Source: Rhodocytophaga rosea (lineage in GTDB: Bacteria; Bacteroidota; Bacteroidia; Cytophagales; 172606-1). Taken from it: DNA of 64,000 nucleotides. A model generated the notes under the pieces. The model was not told the DNA's origin, searched no databases, and saw only the letters and a list, made by a program, of their open reading frames with translations. Within the stretch, counting starts at the first letter, position 1, and every line of letters begins with the position of its first letter. The translations under genes and the position numbers were made by a program. This document shows positions 9,810 through 55,664 of the stretch, piece after piece. Location of the stretch: positions 682,001-746,000 of the forward strand of contig NZ_CP048222.1 in the NCBI RefSeq assembly GCF_010119975.1, read 5' to 3'.

Positions 9810-10928
9810 ATGAAAACCATCCTTTTACCCTTACTGGCATCAAATTTAATCCTGTTGTTTTCGGCATATGGTCAATCTACAATTCAAAGTGAATTGGATG
9901 CCCTGATGAAGCATAATTTCCAGCCTGACCAACCAGGGGGAATGGTTCTGGTTTGGGAAAAGGGCAAGATACGGTACCAACAGGGCATAGGTCTGGAAAA
10001 CCTGGACACTAAAAAGGCGATTACTCCAACTACTACCTTCCGTATGGCTTCGGTTTCCAAACAATTTACGGCCATGGCTATACTCATTCTGGAAAAACAA
10101 AATAAATTAAAACTGGAAGACAAACTTTCCAGGTACTTTCCTCAGCTTAAGCCGGAAATAGGCGACAAGATCATATTGAAACATTTGCTTACCCATACTT
10201 CCGGCATTCCCGATTATGAGAGCCTGATGGACCAATCCTGGAACAGGCAAATTCTCGATGAAGATATTCCCCTGCTGCTGGCATCGCAACCGAAAGGCTA
10301 TTTTACACCCGGCTCACAATTCAGGTATTCCAATACCGGCTTTTGCCTGCTTGCCTTAGTAGTGAAGCAAGTATCTGGAAAACCTTATGCTCAATTTTTG
10401 AAGCAGTACATCTTTGAGCCGCTGGAAATGAATCACACCTTTATCTATGAAAACAAGCATCCTGTTCCAGGCCGGGGAATGGGCTATGCCAGAACGGAAC
10501 CCGGCCAGATCATCCCTTCCGACCAGAGCCTGACGAGTGCTACCAAAGGAGATGGCTGTGTGTATACCTGCATAGCAGACTATTTGAAATGGTATCAGGC
10601 CTGCCGTACAAATACACTGGCTGATCTGCTGGGAAAGCTTTCAGAAATAGGCTATTTATTTCCTAAAGGAAGTGGAGAAGGATATGGCCTGGGGTGGTTT
10701 TTTAAGAAAAAGAAACAAGGTGGAAACTACGAACTCACCCACAGCGGCTCCACCTGCGGATTTAGCCATGTGGTCGTACAGGTTCCGGATGAGGATTTGC
10801 TGATCGTGTATTTTTCAAATCTGGCGGATAATCATGCCGTTTTCGATACGATTTATGACACTGTCAGGAAATATTCTTCCTACAAAATACAACTCGACTT
10901 CAAACAAATGCACCTGCTTACCAATTGA
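9810..10928 (+). CDS. beta-lactamase/DD-peptidase-like serine hydrolase
   Basis: About 372 residues. The ATG at 9810 is preferred to an upstream in-frame GTG because it begins a normal signal peptide (MKTILLPLLASNLILLFSAYG). The serine beta-lactamase fold is shown by the SVSK motif (SxxK; nucleophile Ser and general base Lys), YSN in FRYSNTGF (YxN) and HSGST near the C-terminus, which stands in for the KTG box. Such class C-like proteins include DD-peptidases and esterases, and resistance to beta-lactams should not be assumed. The stop codon lies inside a 22-base tandem duplication, which may have shifted or extended the C-terminus slightly. Confidence 0.88.
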   Translation: MKTILLPLLASNLILLFSAYGQSTIQSELDALMKHNFQPDQPGGMVLVWEKGKIRYQQGIGLENLDTKKAITPTTTFRMASVSKQFTAMAILILEKQNKLKLEDKLSRYFPQLKPEIGDKIILKHLLTHTSGIPDYESLMDQSWNRQILDEDIPLLLASQPKGYFTPGSQFRYSNTGFCLLALVVKQVSGKPYAQFLKQYIFEPLEMNHTFIYENKHPVPGRGMGYARTEPGQIIPSDQSLTSATKGDGCVYTCIADYLKWYQACRTNTLADLLGKLSEIGYLFPKGSGEGYGLGWFFKKKKQGGNYELTHSGSTCGFSHVVVQVPDEDLLIVYFSNLADNHAVFDTIYDTVRKYSSYKIQLDFKQMHLLTN

Positions 10929-51393: not shown

Positions 51394-52013
51394 CATGAGT
51401 ACTACTCAAAGCAAGGTAAAACGAAAGAAATATCCAAGTGACATCAGTAAAAATGGCTGGAAAAAGTTAACTCCGTATCTACCGGAGAGCAAGTCGGACT
51501 CCCAAAAAGGGGGCGCGCATCCGTAGCCTTGAAAGAGGTAATGGATGGAATCATGTATGTAGTGAAAACCGGTTGTAGATGGCGCAGTATGACCATGACC
51601 TGCCTCATTGGTTAACAACAGTCTATGGCTATTTTGACCCTTGGAGTAAAAGCGGGTTATGGCAGCAGATTCACTCGTTCTTAGTCCGGAAAGTGCGTCG
51701 GCAAATGAAAAGAAAACCCATGCCTAGTGCAGGCAGTTTAGATTCTCAAAGTGTAAAGACGACTGCTTGTGGAGGAGAGCATCGGGGATTTGATGCGGGC
51801 AAGCTTGTTAAAGGCCGAAAACGCTTCATTCTTACCCCTACACAAGGCTTACTAGTAGCCGTTTGGATTTGTGCAGCGAGTGTGTCGGAAAAGCAAGGCG
51901 CTAAACAGCTTTTACGCTATATCAAATTAGTACCTTGCTTGCAGGAGTTGTGTAGCTGTATCCAGCTAGTGAGGTACTCCCCGTTTTTAGGACCAAAAAT
52001 GGGTAATTCTTAA
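51394..52013 (+). pseudogene. IS5-like transposase, frameshifted and truncated
   Basis: The start at 51394 reads KYPSDISKNGWKKLTPYLP, the N-terminus of an IS5-type transposase. A first frameshift lies near 51522 (then VALKEVMDGIMYVVKTGCRW) and a second near 51588 (then LPHWLTTVYGYFDPWSKSG). The core continues with AGSLDSQSVKTTACGGEHRG (first catalytic Asp), FDAGKLVKGRKRFIL, but the second Asp and Glu regions are missing. It belongs to a different IS5 subgroup from the 864-bp element. It is inactive. Confidence 0.85.
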
Positions 52014-52026
52014 TTGAAACTTTTCT

Positions 52027-52539
52027 TTAGGCGCTACTGGCCAATGAACTATAATAGACTGCAACTGGTAGTTGCCTTCCAACGCCTTGATGATACTTCT
52101 TATTATTATATCTTTCGAAGAATTCCTTCAGACCCTGATATAGCTGCCAGCCGTCTTCAGGTGGGGTAAAGTAAACATAATCATATTTCACTGTTCGCCA
52201 CAATCTTTCAATATATACGTTATCAATTGCCCTGCCTTTTCCATCCATACTAATTAAAATTAGCTGCTCTTTCAGATAGTCTATCCACTTTTTGCAGGTG
52301 AACTGGCTACCCTGATCGGAATTAACGATTTGTGGCTTGCCACGACTGGCAAGGGCTACCTGCAAGGTTTCCAGTACCCAATCCGCATCCATATTGTTTG
52401 AAATATCCCAACCTACCACAAAGCGGCTATGTACATCAATGATAGCCACCAGGTACATAAAGCCTTTTGCCATAGGTATATAGATTATATCTATTTGCCA
52501 AACCTGATTGCTTTCAGTGATAGACAAATTCTTTAACAA
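52027..52539 (-). pseudogene. orfB (rve integrase core) fragment of IS3 element A
   Basis: A 170-codon open stretch containing the IS3-type DDE core: first Asp in VWQIDIIYIPMAKGF, second Asp in IVNSDQGSQFT, and Glu in NVYIERLWRTVKYDYVY, ending NKKYHQGVGRQLPVAVYY. The core is complete, but its N-terminal half lies in other frames upstream (52540-52935), recognisable as LRSQGYVVNHKRVRRLLRK and MGLMAIFPKPN. It is not expected to make an active transposase. Confidence 0.88.
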
Positions 52540-52574
52540 GTATGGATAGATGTACTCAGTTTTGCCTAGCCTAC

Positions 52575-52608
52575 TTGGACCTAAAATGAGATTTTATCTC
52601 AGGTCCAA
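52575..52608. repeat. palindromic insertion 1 in IS3 element A
   Basis: TTGGACCT (52575-52582) and AGGTCCAA (52601-52608) enclose an inner TGAGAT-TTT-ATCTCA. It interrupts the orfB frame between FPKPN and SRLGKTEYIYPYLL. A related sequence lies at 52743-52763. Confidence 0.6.
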
Positions 52609-52742
52609 TTTGGTTTAGGAAAGATGGCCATAAGGCCCATTTTTCTCAGTAATCGCCTTACTCGCTTGTGATTGACAACATACCCCTGGCTGCGCAGATA
52701 GTCCTGCATTTGCAGTACTGCTTCTGTTGGATACTTCGCAAA

Positions 52743-52763
52743 TGAGATATTTGATCTCAGGTC
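52743..52763. repeat. palindromic insertion 2 in IS3 element A
   Basis: TGAGAT (52743-52748), a 5-base loop, ATCTCA (52754-52759), then GGTCT. Nearly the same sequence as the inner part of the 52575-52608 palindrome, and it also breaks the orfB frame, at the usual FYG position. Confidence 0.6.
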
Positions 52764-52805
52764 TGATAGCGTTCATCCAACAAACGCATAATCCTTAAGT
52801 TTTCT

Positions 52806-52855
52806 TCTGTTTCGGCAGCAGGCTGATAATTCTGTTTCGGCAGCAGGTTGATAAT
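52806..52855. repeat. 25-bp tandem duplication in IS3 element A
   Basis: Two 25-base units beginning TCTGTTTCGGCAGCAGG (52806-52830 and 52831-52855), with one mismatch. Because 25 is not a multiple of three, it shifts the orfB frame. Confidence 0.88.
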
Positions 52856-53171
52856 ACAGCACGCTTCGGTGCAGACCCAATAAATCGCACTGCGCCAGAA
52901 TATTGAGTTCGCTTTTGGCATCGATCATGGCTTTCAATTGGTTTAGCCCAGTTTCTTCAAGCTTTTTTTTAGAAACTCATTTTCTAACTCTAACCTGCCT
53001 ATTTTAGCATACAAGAGATCCGGGTTAATCTCTTCCTCTGATTGCGCTTCAGAAGATTTTTCGAATATTGAGGCGGCTCTGCTCAGAAAGTCTTGCTTCC
53101 ATTTACCGATCATTGAACCTGCTACCTTTGAGTGGACGATAAGTTAAGCGAAAATAATTACCTTAACGAAT

Positions 53172-53510
53172 ATGTCAGAAAGAAGAAAGTTTGATAAAGC
53201 CTTTAAGTTGATGACCGTTGAGCTGTGCCTGTCGGGCAAATCAACTACAGAAGTAGCAGCAGAATTAGGGCTGCGCCCCGAACTGGTCAGCCGCTGGAAG
53301 CGAGAGTATGAACAAAGAAAGGAAGGCAGTTTTTCAGGGCATGGCAAGCCTGCTTAATCAGCAGAACAGGCCGAAATAGCCAGGTTGAAAAAGCAGCTTC
53401 GAGAGGCAGAAATAGAGCGCGATATGGAGCCGATGCTCACAACGTAGGCAGGTCCAAAAAAGGCAGTGAGCATCTTCTCCAAGAACGATGGCAAATTTTT
53501 CAATTCATGA
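53172..53510 (+). pseudogene. orfA of IS3 element B, with nonsense codon and 30-base insertion
   Basis: Begins MSERRKFDKAFKLMTVELC, a normal IS3 helix-turn-helix (ELGLRPELVSRWKREY). After GHGKPA a stop codon breaks the frame, then it goes on with EQAEIARLKKQLREAEIERD. At the place where the family has ILKKAVSIFSK, a 30-base segment (53426-53455) is inserted, reading EPMLTT-stop-AGP in frame, before KKAVSIFSKNDGKFFNS. The A6G slippery run (53456-53462) for orfA/orfB frameshifting follows the insertion directly. Confidence 0.85.
53426..53474 (+). repeat. 30-base insertion plus paired downstream arm at the IS3 frameshift site, copy in element B
   Basis: The inserted 30 bases (53426-53455, GGAGCC to GGTCC) contain GATGCTCAC (53432-53440), which pairs perfectly with GTGAGCATC (53466-53474) in the normal orfA coding sequence. 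The A6G slippery run lies in the loop. GGAG followed by ATG CTC ACA ACG TAG forms a possible four-codon mini-frame. Confidence 0.8.
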
Positions 53511-54033
53511 AAAAGCATCACTCTATATTTGCCATTGAGAAGATGTGCAAGGTGTTGAAAGTCAGTAAGAGCGGGTATTATCATTGGCTCAACCGGAAGC
53601 CCTCTCCTAGGCAGGTAGATGAACAACAAGCTCTTAAGTTGATTAAGGAAATACATCAGGAAAGCAAGCGCCGATATGGTAGCCCAAAAATTACTTATGA
53701 ACTTAAAAAGTAAGGTGTTTCTATGTCTAGGCCCAGGGTAGCCATAATCATGAGAAAAGCTAGTATTAGAAGCATTGTTCATAAACGATTTAGAATTTGT
53801 ACCACTGATTCTAATCATACTTATCCGGTAGCTGAAAACTTATTAAACAGAAACTTTACACCGGAATACACAGGTAAAGCGTGGGGATCAGATCTGACTT
53901 ATATAAAAACTACTAACGGCTGGTTATATCTGACTGTCATTATAGATTTAGCAGATCGAAAAGTAGTTGGTTGGTCATTGAGCCAAACAATGAAAGCTTC
54001 AGACACAGTGATTCCTGCCTGGAAGATGGCCAT
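53507..54033 (+). pseudogene. orfB of IS3 element B, first part
   Basis: The HTH_21 region (IFAIEKMCKVLKVSKSGYYH, RRYGSPKITYELKK) is followed by a stop, then SRPRVAIIMRKASIRSI and the integrase core start (WGSDLTYIKTTNGWLYLTV with the first catalytic Asp). It breaks off at AWKMAI where element C is inserted; the rest of the gene continues at 55319. With a nonsense codon and an insertion, it is inactive. Confidence 0.9.
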
Positions 54034-54100
54034 TGGACTTGCTACCTTTGACAGGAGGGAAAGAGATAGGCAGATTTAATAATTTATTAAATTTGATACT

Positions 54101-54425
54101 ATGAAAAGACAAGTATTCGACCAAGCATTTAAACAAATGGCCGTAGAGTTATCTTATGCAAAAGGATCAGTCAAGGTAGCAGCTGCAGAATTAGGAATAG
54201 ATCCTGATTAAGTAAGTGGCGGCAGAGTGAGCAGGACAGCAATGTAGCTCCTATTGAGAAGCCTGGCCTTACAGCTGAACAGTTAGAAATCAAACGCTTA
54301 CAAAAGGAGTTAAAGGAGGCTCAGTTAGAGCGTGATATCTGGAGCCGATGCTGACAACGTAGGCAGGTCCAAAAAAGGCCGTCAGCATCTTTTCCAAGAG
54401 CGACGGGAAATATTCCGGTTTATAA
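54101..54425 (+). pseudogene. orfA of IS3 element C, frameshifted, with the same 30-base insertion
   Basis: Starts MKRQVFDQAFKQMAVEL. A one-base shift after GIDPD ends the frame; the other frame continues LSKWRQSEQDSNVAPIEKPG and LQKELKEAQLERDI. There the 30-base insertion (54341-54370) follows and the frame would read WSRC-stop. The normal end KKAVSIFSKSDGKYSGL resumes after the A6G run. So the gene is broken twice: by the shift and by the insertion. Confidence 0.88.
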
Positions 54426-55288
54426 ACGAATATAGAGAGGTATTTCCGGTTGAAAAGATGTGTAAGGTAATGCAAGTGAGTGTAAGTGGATATTATTATT
54501 GGCTAAAAAATCCTATTAGCTCTAGAGCAATTAAAGAACAGGAATTGTTAGTTAATATTCATAAAATATATGACGATAGTAAAAAGCGCTATGGAAGCCC
54601 CAGAATTACTAGCGAGTTGAGAGAACTAGGTATCCAGGTTTCACGTCCACGGGTGGCAAGGTTAATGAAAAAAGCAAACATCAAAAGTATTATTCGTAAA
54701 AAATACCGGATACAAACCACTGATTCTAACCACGAATATACTGTTGCTGAAAATCATCTGAATAGAGATTTTTCTGCACAAACGATTGGCCAGAAATGGG
54801 TATCTGATCTGACTTACATCAGAACAGGGGCTGGCTGGCTGTACCTGACAGCTATACTGGATCTAGCTGACCGAAAGGTAGTAGGTTGGGCATTGAGTGA
54901 AACAATGAAAACTTCTGATACTACTATAGCAGCCTGGAAAATGGCCATCAAGAACAGACCTATTAGTCAAAATTTATTATTCCATTCCGATAGAGGGGTA
55001 CAATACGCATGTATAGACTTTAGAAAGCAATTGAATCATTTACCTGTATTGCAAAGCATGAGCCGAAAGGGCAATTGTTGGGATAACGCAGTAGCTGAAA
55101 GCTTCTTCAAAACGTTGAAAACAGAGTTAATCTATCATACTGATTATGTTACAAAGCAACAAGCGAAGCTGGCTATTTTTGAATACATTGAAGGGTGGTA
55201 TAATAACAGAAGAAGACTTTCAGCCTTAGGTAACAGAAGTCCTCAACAATATCAGGTTTCTTTAGAAGAAAAAAGAATGGCTGCCTAA
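54332..55288 (+). CDS. orfB transposase of IS3 element C
   Basis: An open frame of about 318 codons; in the IS3 family it is normally expressed as an OrfAB fusion by -1 frameshifting at the A6G run (54371-54377), so the nominal GTG start at 54332 may not be used. HTH_21 (FPVEKMCKVMQVSVSGYYYW, KKRYGSPRITSELREL) precedes the full DDE core: first Asp in WVSDLTYIRTGAG, second Asp in FHSDRGVQYA, Glu in WDNAVAESFFKTLK, ending SPQQYQVSLEEKRMAA. The core is complete, but the matching orfA is broken, so activity would need a partner. Confidence 0.85.
   Translation: MISGADADNVGRSKKGRQHLFQERREIFRFINEYREVFPVEKMCKVMQVSVSGYYYWLKNPISSRAIKEQELLVNIHKIYDDSKKRYGSPRITSELRELGIQVSRPRVARLMKKANIKSIIRKKYRIQTTDSNHEYTVAENHLNRDFSAQTIGQKWVSDLTYIRTGAGWLYLTAILDLADRKVVGWALSETMKTSDTTIAAWKMAIKNRPISQNLLFHSDRGVQYACIDFRKQLNHLPVLQSMSRKGNCWDNAVAESFFKTLKTELIYHTDYVTKQQAKLAIFEYIEGWYNNRRRLSALGNRSPQQYQVSLEEKRMAA
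54341..54389 (+). repeat. 30-base insertion plus paired downstream arm at the IS3 frameshift site, copy in element C
   Basis: The inserted segment (54341-54370) differs from the element B copy at one base only. Its arm GATGCTGAC (54347-54355) pairs perfectly with GTCAGCATC (54381-54389). The G here replaces C in the other copy, and the opposite strand partner is changed to match. Confidence 0.8.
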
Positions 55289-55318
55289 AAATTCCTCCAG
55301 TAAACTGTTGCAATTCCA

Positions 55319-55664
55319 CATCACAAATAGACCAATCACTACTAATCTAATTTTTCATTCAGACAGAGGTGTACAATACGCCTGTTATGAATTTAGAGAT
55401 GTACTTAAAGCTCATCCACTAGTGCTTCAAAGCATGAGTAGGAAAGCTAATTGTTGGGACAATGCAGTGGCAGAAAGCTTTTTCAGAACATTGAAATCAG
55501 AATTGATATATCCTATGAAAGAGAAATCTATGGAAGTAGCTAAAATTGAAGTTTTTGAATTTATCGAAATCTGGTACAATAGAAAGACAATCCATGCTTC
55601 TCTCGGATATATGACACCGGAAGAATATGGTATACAATTAAATCAACATCGAAACGCAGCTTAA
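55319..55664 (+). pseudogene. orfB of IS3 element B, second part
   Basis: The continuation of the split orfB: TNRPITTNLIFHSDRGVQYA (second catalytic Asp), SMSRKANCWDNAVAESFFRT (catalytic Glu) and the end GYMTPEEYGIQLNQHRNAA. Joined to 53507-54033 across the CAT target duplication, it restores the family order without a gap, which proves the nesting of element C. Confidence 0.92.

Follow-up and report, generated by a model that had tools for sequence, protein, structure and literature searches.

To our knowledge, translational bypassing or micro-splicing is known from phage T4 gene 60, one Prevotella gene and yeast mitochondria. The byps of Magnusiomyces capitatus mitochondria, which Nosek et al. 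2015 reportedly described under a title containing the word 'mobility', share several traits with the inserts reported here (element E): they are short, occur many times per genome, and break the frames of conserved genes. Prevotella loescheii, which has a hop in its plaA adhesin gene, belongs to the Bacteroidota. Byps differ from E in lying in organelle genes rather than transposases, and compensating translation has been reported for byps, whereas E is known from sequence alone (PMC5009743 and PMC8211752, excerpts). The interleaved GGACC/GGTCC fold and the Y-N-R replacement of E are absent from the excerpted byps accounts (PMC5009743, PMC8211752), and the requirement for matched take-off and landing codons is relaxed in byps (PMC5009743, excerpt). 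The gap of the plaA hop, 29 nt, equals the commonest net length of E; the hop concerns a single gene (PMC5009743, PMC3022353, excerpts) and is without follow-up work according to the excerpt of PMC5009743. The 50-nt bypass of T4 gene 60 also involves a non-coding, hairpin-bearing insert inside a gene, but it stands alone and has matched GGA codons plus a nascent-peptide signal (PMC5009743, excerpt).

Two groups of bacterial palindromes also invite comparison. REP sequences, tagged with GTAG or CGTC, are dispersed, 20–40 bp long and have alternative complementary stem residues; unlike E, they are mostly intergenic and carry their tag at one end (PMC3733652, excerpt). The ends of E are symmetric (GGACC/GGTCC) with no GTAG or CGTC tag, and the copies examined lie inside transposase genes. 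Rickettsia palindromic elements lie inside genes, as E does, but are about 150 bp long and in frame (PMC10969869, excerpt); E has a length n of 26–33 nt and a net length of mostly n-1. Among the matches listed, the open-licence literature yielded no description of a comparable element.

The window, a 64,000-nt stretch of the Rhodocytophaga rosea genome, contains two neighbouring IS3 elements (B and C) and a further element (A) with the following features:

53426 to 53455, plus strand: element E in IS3 element B; GGAGCC subtype, flanks GATAT and AAAAAAGG
54341 to 54370, plus strand: element E in IS3 element C; flanks GATATCT and AAAAAAGG; differs from the copy in B at position 13
53466 to 53474, plus strand: downstream orfA sequence GTGAGCATC, complement of 53432-53440
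54381 to 54389, plus strand: downstream orfA sequence GTCAGCATC, complement of 54347-54355
52577 to 52606, minus strand: further E in the element A transposase; sense GGACCTGAGATAAAATCTCATTTTAGGTCC, context PKPN-E-SRLGK
52738 to 52765, minus strand: AGACCTGAGATCAAATATCTCATTTGCG in element A, possibly a decayed relative from the same subtype (by eye only)
53172 to 54080, plus strand: remains of the host gene of IS3 element B (orfA and truncated orfB), ending where element C begins
54332 to 55288, plus strand: orfB of IS3 element C; the frame starts at a GTG within ERDI, spans 318 aa and stays open through the element

The original prediction drew attention to the two 30-mers in B and C, and its description of them holds in most respects. 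Both are present where it placed them and differ at one base, their 9-nt arms (53432-53440 and 54347-54355) pair perfectly with 53466-53474 and 54381-54389, the affected Val codon is GTG in B and GTC in C, and the MLTT-stop mini-frame exists. The variable base lies at position 13 of the segment, where the prediction counted 14. Chance matches to the 30-mer averaged 0.00 over 100 shufflings of the window. Two extra bases (ct) precede the segment in C, giving the boundaries GATAT/E in B and GATATCT/E in C, and the orfB of element B contains one in-frame stop. For the E in element A (52577-52606, minus strand), one nucleotide left in place would join 55 and 182 open codons. Element A also contains a 25-base tandem duplication (TTCTGTTTCGGCAGCAGGYTGATAA) at window positions 52805-52854.

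Within 3 mismatches, the 30-mer occurs at 14 places in the window's own genome (G000; one contig, 8.98 Mb; loci are given L-numbers). By inspection, 13 of these are IS3 frameshift sites and one (L014) lies elsewhere; eight of the 14 are copies of one nearly identical IS3 element. A looser pattern, CGATGCT-N-CAGGTCC, is found at 32 places in G000 (reversed control, 1), and GGACC-N17-23-GGTCC at 41 places, 29 of which have an interleaved b-c-b'-c' pairing of at least 6 bp. Counting GGACC-N-GGTCC ends alone is uninformative because the reversed control pattern occurs 144 times in the own genome and 1–167 times in genomes of the family. If the ends must be exact and at least 6 bp must pair in interleaved order, 19 candidates remain in G000, 31 in G055 and 15 in G069, against 0.0 in block shuffles. 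These counts are not densities, as the regions scanned (459 kb, 388 kb and 316 kb, respectively) were picked for containing matches. With one or two end mismatches allowed, the excess over shuffles is small or nil. G055 and G069 are metagenome-assembled genomes (MAGs) and may contain indel errors.

Taken together, E is almost certainly a family of structured inserts, as judged from these sequence patterns. Its members are ∼26–33 nt long with nearly constant ends (GGACC...GGTCC, 5 bp) and, in most subtypes, interior pairs in the order b-c-b'-c'. Among the 119 strong elements (of 150 accepted at thresholds set by the analysis itself), n ranges from 26 to 33 and is most commonly 30. An additional class consists of a plain 26–27-nt hairpin with the same ends.

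Covariation points to pairing of the interior arms. A 257 Gb genome scan for one subtype with ten interior bases left free returned 7 matches, six of them in two Cytophagales MAGs (YX1bin7 and YX2bin28) and the seventh on a 3.9-kb contig binned as a cyanobacterium. The free 5-mers pair at 5/5 positions in six matches and at 4/5 in one, and the full pairs are of five kinds. The 3.9-kb contig, assigned to Thermosynechococcaceae within the same YX series and perhaps mis-binned or transferred, carries an element (L189 2939-2967) with another c/c' pair, CAGCG/CGCTG. In alignments of two subtypes (7 and 6 distinct sequences), the covariation scores were 0.204 and 0.227, compared with 0.072 and 0.077 in shuffles, none of 500 of which reached the observed value; slid controls stayed at or below 0.076. 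One pair position shows CG, AU, GC, UA and UG. Weaker measures were unremarkable (double-change pairs, 61/500 and 30/500; further pair types, 264/500 and 35/500). The outer stem is invariant in the aligned sets, so that its support comes from conservation only. The interior has almost no loop nucleotides and its two stems could hardly form simultaneously in RNA, which makes alternation between two hairpins as likely as a true pseudoknot. Single-strand folding z-scores ranged from -1.7 to -5.2 for eight sequences and were +0.5 and +0.3 for the two 30-mers of the window; the GGAGC subtype to which these belong has an outer-stem mismatch, folds no better than shuffles and is thus weakly folded on its own. 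Rfam 15 covariance models gave no match up to an E-value of 1 in window positions 52000-55500, a span that contains three copies.

Comparison with element-free sites suggests that E very probably replaces one nucleotide at Y-N-R. The base before E is T or C at 99 of 101 distinct sites, and the base after it is A or G at 96. Seventy-two elements have a usable element-free homologous site, several of these rows being copies of one element. The empty site has one base more than the joined flanks in 52 of the 72 comparisons, two more in 8, three more in 3, none in 6 and fewer in 3. Some of the zero-difference rows are orfA/B sites with ambiguous alignment, five of the 8 two-base rows come from one site (VAR/MKK, two bases lost), and the three-base rows are the GW/MS site of L064 and L068 (own copies) and L122. 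The clearest empty allele is that of an IS256 gene, which reads CTC where the occupied allele reads C-E-G, in surroundings that are 84% identical. The lost base is often T; a strict T-replacement rule was rejected since A and C are also lost (L102_14640, L100_16433). Target site duplication, as in a MITE, was not the pattern at these empty sites, where one nucleotide is lost in 52 of 72.

As one base is lost at most sites, an n-nt E mostly adds n-1 nt; at the commonest n of 30, this puts the downstream sequence out of frame. E thus breaks the reading frame of its host gene. When open frames were spanned across strong elements, one leftover nucleotide was clearly best for 18 of 40 in G000 (5 zero, 5 two, 12 unclear), 17 of 46 in G055 (3 zero, 10 two, 16 unclear) and 4 of 33 in G069 (6 zero, 4 two, 19 unclear), and the empty-site comparisons indicate that leaving one nucleotide does not restore the frame at every site. 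By eye, the recurrent-site rows place E in all three codon phases, and in the rows examined no identical take-off and landing codons were seen, the triplet before E differing from that before the resume codon. A classical hop between matched codons is not supported by these rows.

Nearly all recognised hosts of E encode transposases. Among 20 fragments searched against Pfam, open translations spanning E matched Mu-type C-terminal with rve, Transposase_mut, DUF772, rve with HTH_21, DDE_Tnp_IS66 (twice), DEDD_Tnp_IS110, HTH_32 with DDE_3, and DDE_Tnp_1. Two more fragments fell under the Pfam curated cut-off (DDE_Tnp_1 and rve_3), Zn_ribbon_ISL3, DUF4096 and a second DDE_3 came from fragments adjoining rather than spanning E, and four of the 20 had no Pfam family. 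We take Mu-type C-terminal with rve to be IS21-like, Transposase_mut IS256, DUF772 IS1182-like, rve with HTH_21 IS3, HTH_32 with DDE_3 IS630-like and DDE_Tnp_1 IS5-like, these names being partly presumed. Altogether, the transposases interrupted by E, that of element A among them, are of at least eight kinds and come from four related genomes. The structured copies examined, a subset drawn from the GGACC-N17-23-GGTCC set, lie in recognisable transposase genes. One clear non-transposase host was observed, a TAAA-type E where a putative antitoxin gene meets one for a ParE-like toxin (L110 9274).

Judged by these searches, E is found in two genera of one Cytophagales family. One subtype pattern occurs at 8 distinct places in G000, 3 in its sister species G040, 8 in G055 (13 strand matches) and 2 in G069, and at none in G082, G024, G004 or G096. 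Among 395 genomes of a phylum sample, one subtype was found in its own genome only, the other 394 having none, and the 30-mer of the window was found in 2 of 291 genomes of an order sample (G000 and G069). Viral contigs searched with one subtype and a plasmid collection searched with two 30-mers gave no match.

Identical 30-mers occur at different sites and in different genera: GGACCTAAAATGAGATTTTATCTCAGGTCC is shared by element A, an IstA gene in G055 and an IS66 gene in G069. Such repeats make it very likely that E moves, or has moved, between sites. Within IS3 elements, E recurs at seven positions defined by regular expressions on motifs (orfA/B, SD/TYI, RKGN/WDNA, R/GSPR, VAR/MKK, GW/MS and LD/FSRK; 47 site copies), two of which are, by eye, occupied in G040. 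At these sites the subtype follows the site. Elements at the same site share an identity of 0.797, compared with 0.673 when permuted (sd 0.008; maximum 0.710 of 1000), in pairs that are not independent. Orientation is kept as well (0.784 versus 0.652 reversed; 145 pairs with host flanks less than 80% identical). Similarity between elements rises with host flank identity (r 0.42 overall; 0.39–0.85 at five of six sites and -0.15 at VAR/MKK). Two histories would fit the site-subtype pattern: E may have stayed in the host gene for a long time, or its insertion may be target-specific and depend on the flank. Target-specific homing could mimic co-inheritance.

The orfA/B site of IS3 elements is where the original prediction placed its emphasis, on a base change in the segment compensated in the downstream arm. 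The compensating pair is real. A perfect 9-nt downstream complement is present at 5 of 12 distinct orfA/B sites (window B, window C, L068, L096 and L097). It exists in three versions (GTGAGCATC, GTCAGCATC and GTGGGCATC), each matching at every base. By eye, L061 (the commonest element, 8 copies; C with GTC) and L078 (C with GTA) have one mismatch, L066, L013, L056 and L076 have 2–3, and L126 carries the segment in the opposite orientation; a thirteenth site outside this count, L218, has one mismatch. With 5 of 12 perfect, covariation of position 13 with the downstream codon fails as a general rule and was rejected as a defining feature; the pairing at orfA/B exceeds chance, yet is no rule. Over 101 sites, the longest run of complementarity between E and its flank averages 5.54, compared with 5.16 when permuted, and runs of at least 8 occur at 9 sites versus 2.45 expected (largest 6). 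Five of these nine are orfA/B sites, and complementarity as a general homing guide was rejected on this account.

An RNA element that controls -1 frameshifting of IS3 at A6G, one role suggested in the original prediction, would account for the 12 distinct hosts with E directly ahead of the A-run, for the perfect pairing at five of them, and for B-type hosts in which one leftover nucleotide would fuse orfA and orfB in frame (L061, L078). We consider it very unlikely. Location at the frameshift site in all carriers, as in an IS3 stimulator, was not found: the same family occupies six other motif-defined IS3 sites and other IS families, seven of the 12 cases pair imperfectly or not at all, and the orfA frame of element B reaches a TAG ahead of the slippery run. 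Because many elements lie far from any frameshift site, frameshift control is not supported as their general role, and because the same sequence class sits at sites with no nearby complement, templating by the downstream strand, a second suggestion, is not supported as their origin. A third suggestion, a short spreading element of the translational-bypass or hairpin-insertion kind, pointed in the right direction, since structured inserts are spread over many sites and several transposase families. The observation behind the prediction is thus confirmed, and the segments are not IS3 frameshift regulators; the downstream pairing is best read as a local feature rather than the element's purpose. 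An E-bearing IS256 gene (L062 11900-13450, minus strand, own genome 67899-69449; also L087 and L089) contains a 23-base perfect inverted repeat (CAAAAGGAAGCAGCCTCAGTGGC) in place of a region read as KKEVLGIW in the element-free L090, whose left arm is not complementary. This repeat looks like templated correction of a near-palindrome, and such correction is one possible cause of the arm matching at orfA/B.

The evidence on whether the interrupted genes are dead or still work is mixed. A site-specific mobile palindrome might simply kill transposases, leaving dead insertion sequences whose only routes to multiplication are action in trans and gene conversion. In agreement with such inactivation, E disrupts the frame (mostly by n-1 nt), all recognised hosts but one are transposases, and several hosts appear dead. 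Stops occur in window B, L063, L070, L078 and L097, and L094 and several others require further frame changes. In L094 and L099 the expected VSD and AESF are replaced by VSG and AGSF, with loss of residues that we presume to be catalytic. In addition, most copies examined lack target duplications: 3 of the 8 copies of the commonest IS3 have one of 3–4 bp (by eye), and neither complete E-bearing IS256 copy has an 8-bp duplication, whereas the element-free copy has AATAGTTA. An IstA pair shares an identical E (30/30) beside 50% synonymous divergence (dS 0.82, dN/dS 0.12), which suggests recent independent insertion.

Other genes speak against inactivation. Two genes with three elements each are otherwise intact: the IS1182-like gene is open over 485 codons when the elements are masked, and L075 becomes one uninterrupted orfB. 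The former has four full-length, 100% identical copies and a fifth that is interrupted, and its nearest full-length relative, 70% identical, is intact and element-free at the three sites. At L062 about 10260-10290, and similarly in L143, this gene has a third insert of another class (AATTGACCACGGAATCGGGTCAATGA, TTGACC/GGTCAA ends) that is missing from L140, L141 and L142. L076, with four elements, has a single frame over 266 codons when masked, with an extra frame change near its start (by eye). After the element at 10319, the C-terminal end of its orfB shows, by eye, a ∼40-nt insertion between WYNRK and HSKLGYLSPEQFE that is not of the GGACC class. A structured insert in an otherwise conserved open reading frame, as in bypassing elements, is therefore found for part of the copies, others being decayed.

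The insertion sequences that carry E are also the multi-copy ones (8, 4 and 3 near-identical copies), the nearest full-length relatives being 68–84% identical; no E-free relative found exceeds 84% identity. The eight-copy IS3 has two elements and an additional frame change, and its next full-length relative (68% identical) is itself E-bearing. At L061 about 8680, a copy of this IS3 reads GGCTCTCGCCTTGAG instead of the expected GGCTGGGCCTTGAG, a one-base frame change at the GW/MS site that is possibly an excision scar. The IS256 gene with one E exists in three 100% identical copies, one of them truncated, compared with one element-free copy at 84% (dN/dS 0.04), and no E-free near-identical copy was found for IS21. 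For L094 and L097, which have occupied sites in common, dN/dS is 0.23, and the value of 0.12 for the IstA pair likewise counts in favour of genes still at work; ratios for IS3 pairs were computed with E masked, and saturated synonymous sites yield none. Purifying selection may predate the insertions. The site-subtype association, which holds across diverged hosts, also counts against inactivation. Some E-bearing genes look dead, and given this mixture we rate insertional inactivation as a real but minority prospect, and tolerated expression by putative skipping of E as having a little less than an even chance.

Two further explanations address why transposases are hit. One is that the host writes hairpins into transposase genes as a form of defence or silencing. 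It would fit the nearly exclusive host range, the several unrelated families and the recurrent positions beside conserved codons; with one E at a ParE-type toxin-antitoxin junction and E-bearing insertion sequences that multiplied nonetheless, it is improbable. Least credible of all is a peptide-coding palindrome tolerated in frame in the style of Rickettsia palindromic elements: some copies of E have open frames, but most compared sites are out of frame, and in-frame peptide insertion was rejected on the net length of mostly n-1.

On balance, we favour with some confidence a mobile structured micro-element that is tolerated in transposase genes. The 30-mers would be copies of such an element, ∼26–33 nt long, that would enter Y-N-R sites in transposase genes of several unrelated IS families, mostly replacing the middle base. 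The insertion pattern comes from sequence comparison, and its chemistry we infer. With its two interleaved interior stems, E would act as folded single-stranded RNA or DNA. Inefficient skipping or removal of E, in the RNA or during translation, may then leave the interrupted genes weakly expressed; E would be tolerated because transposases need only low, leaky expression, which is affordable there and not in most genes. More tentatively, bacteria may harbour mobile ∼30-nt micro-inserts whose folded RNA knot is excised or jumped, so that a full-length enzyme is still made from a gene with up to four of them. On that same tentative reading, E would be a bacterial counterpart of the mitochondrial byps, or the smallest of intron-like elements.

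If E is skipped, the family would provide a multi-copy bacterial case of translational bypassing or micro-splicing, together with a natural variant library for testing the mechanism. If it is not, E would still be a family of mobile palindromes of minimal size, unusual in replacing one base of the target and strongly linked to transposases, a link that needs explanation. Either way, the transposases of these genomes would tend toward annotation as broken fragments.
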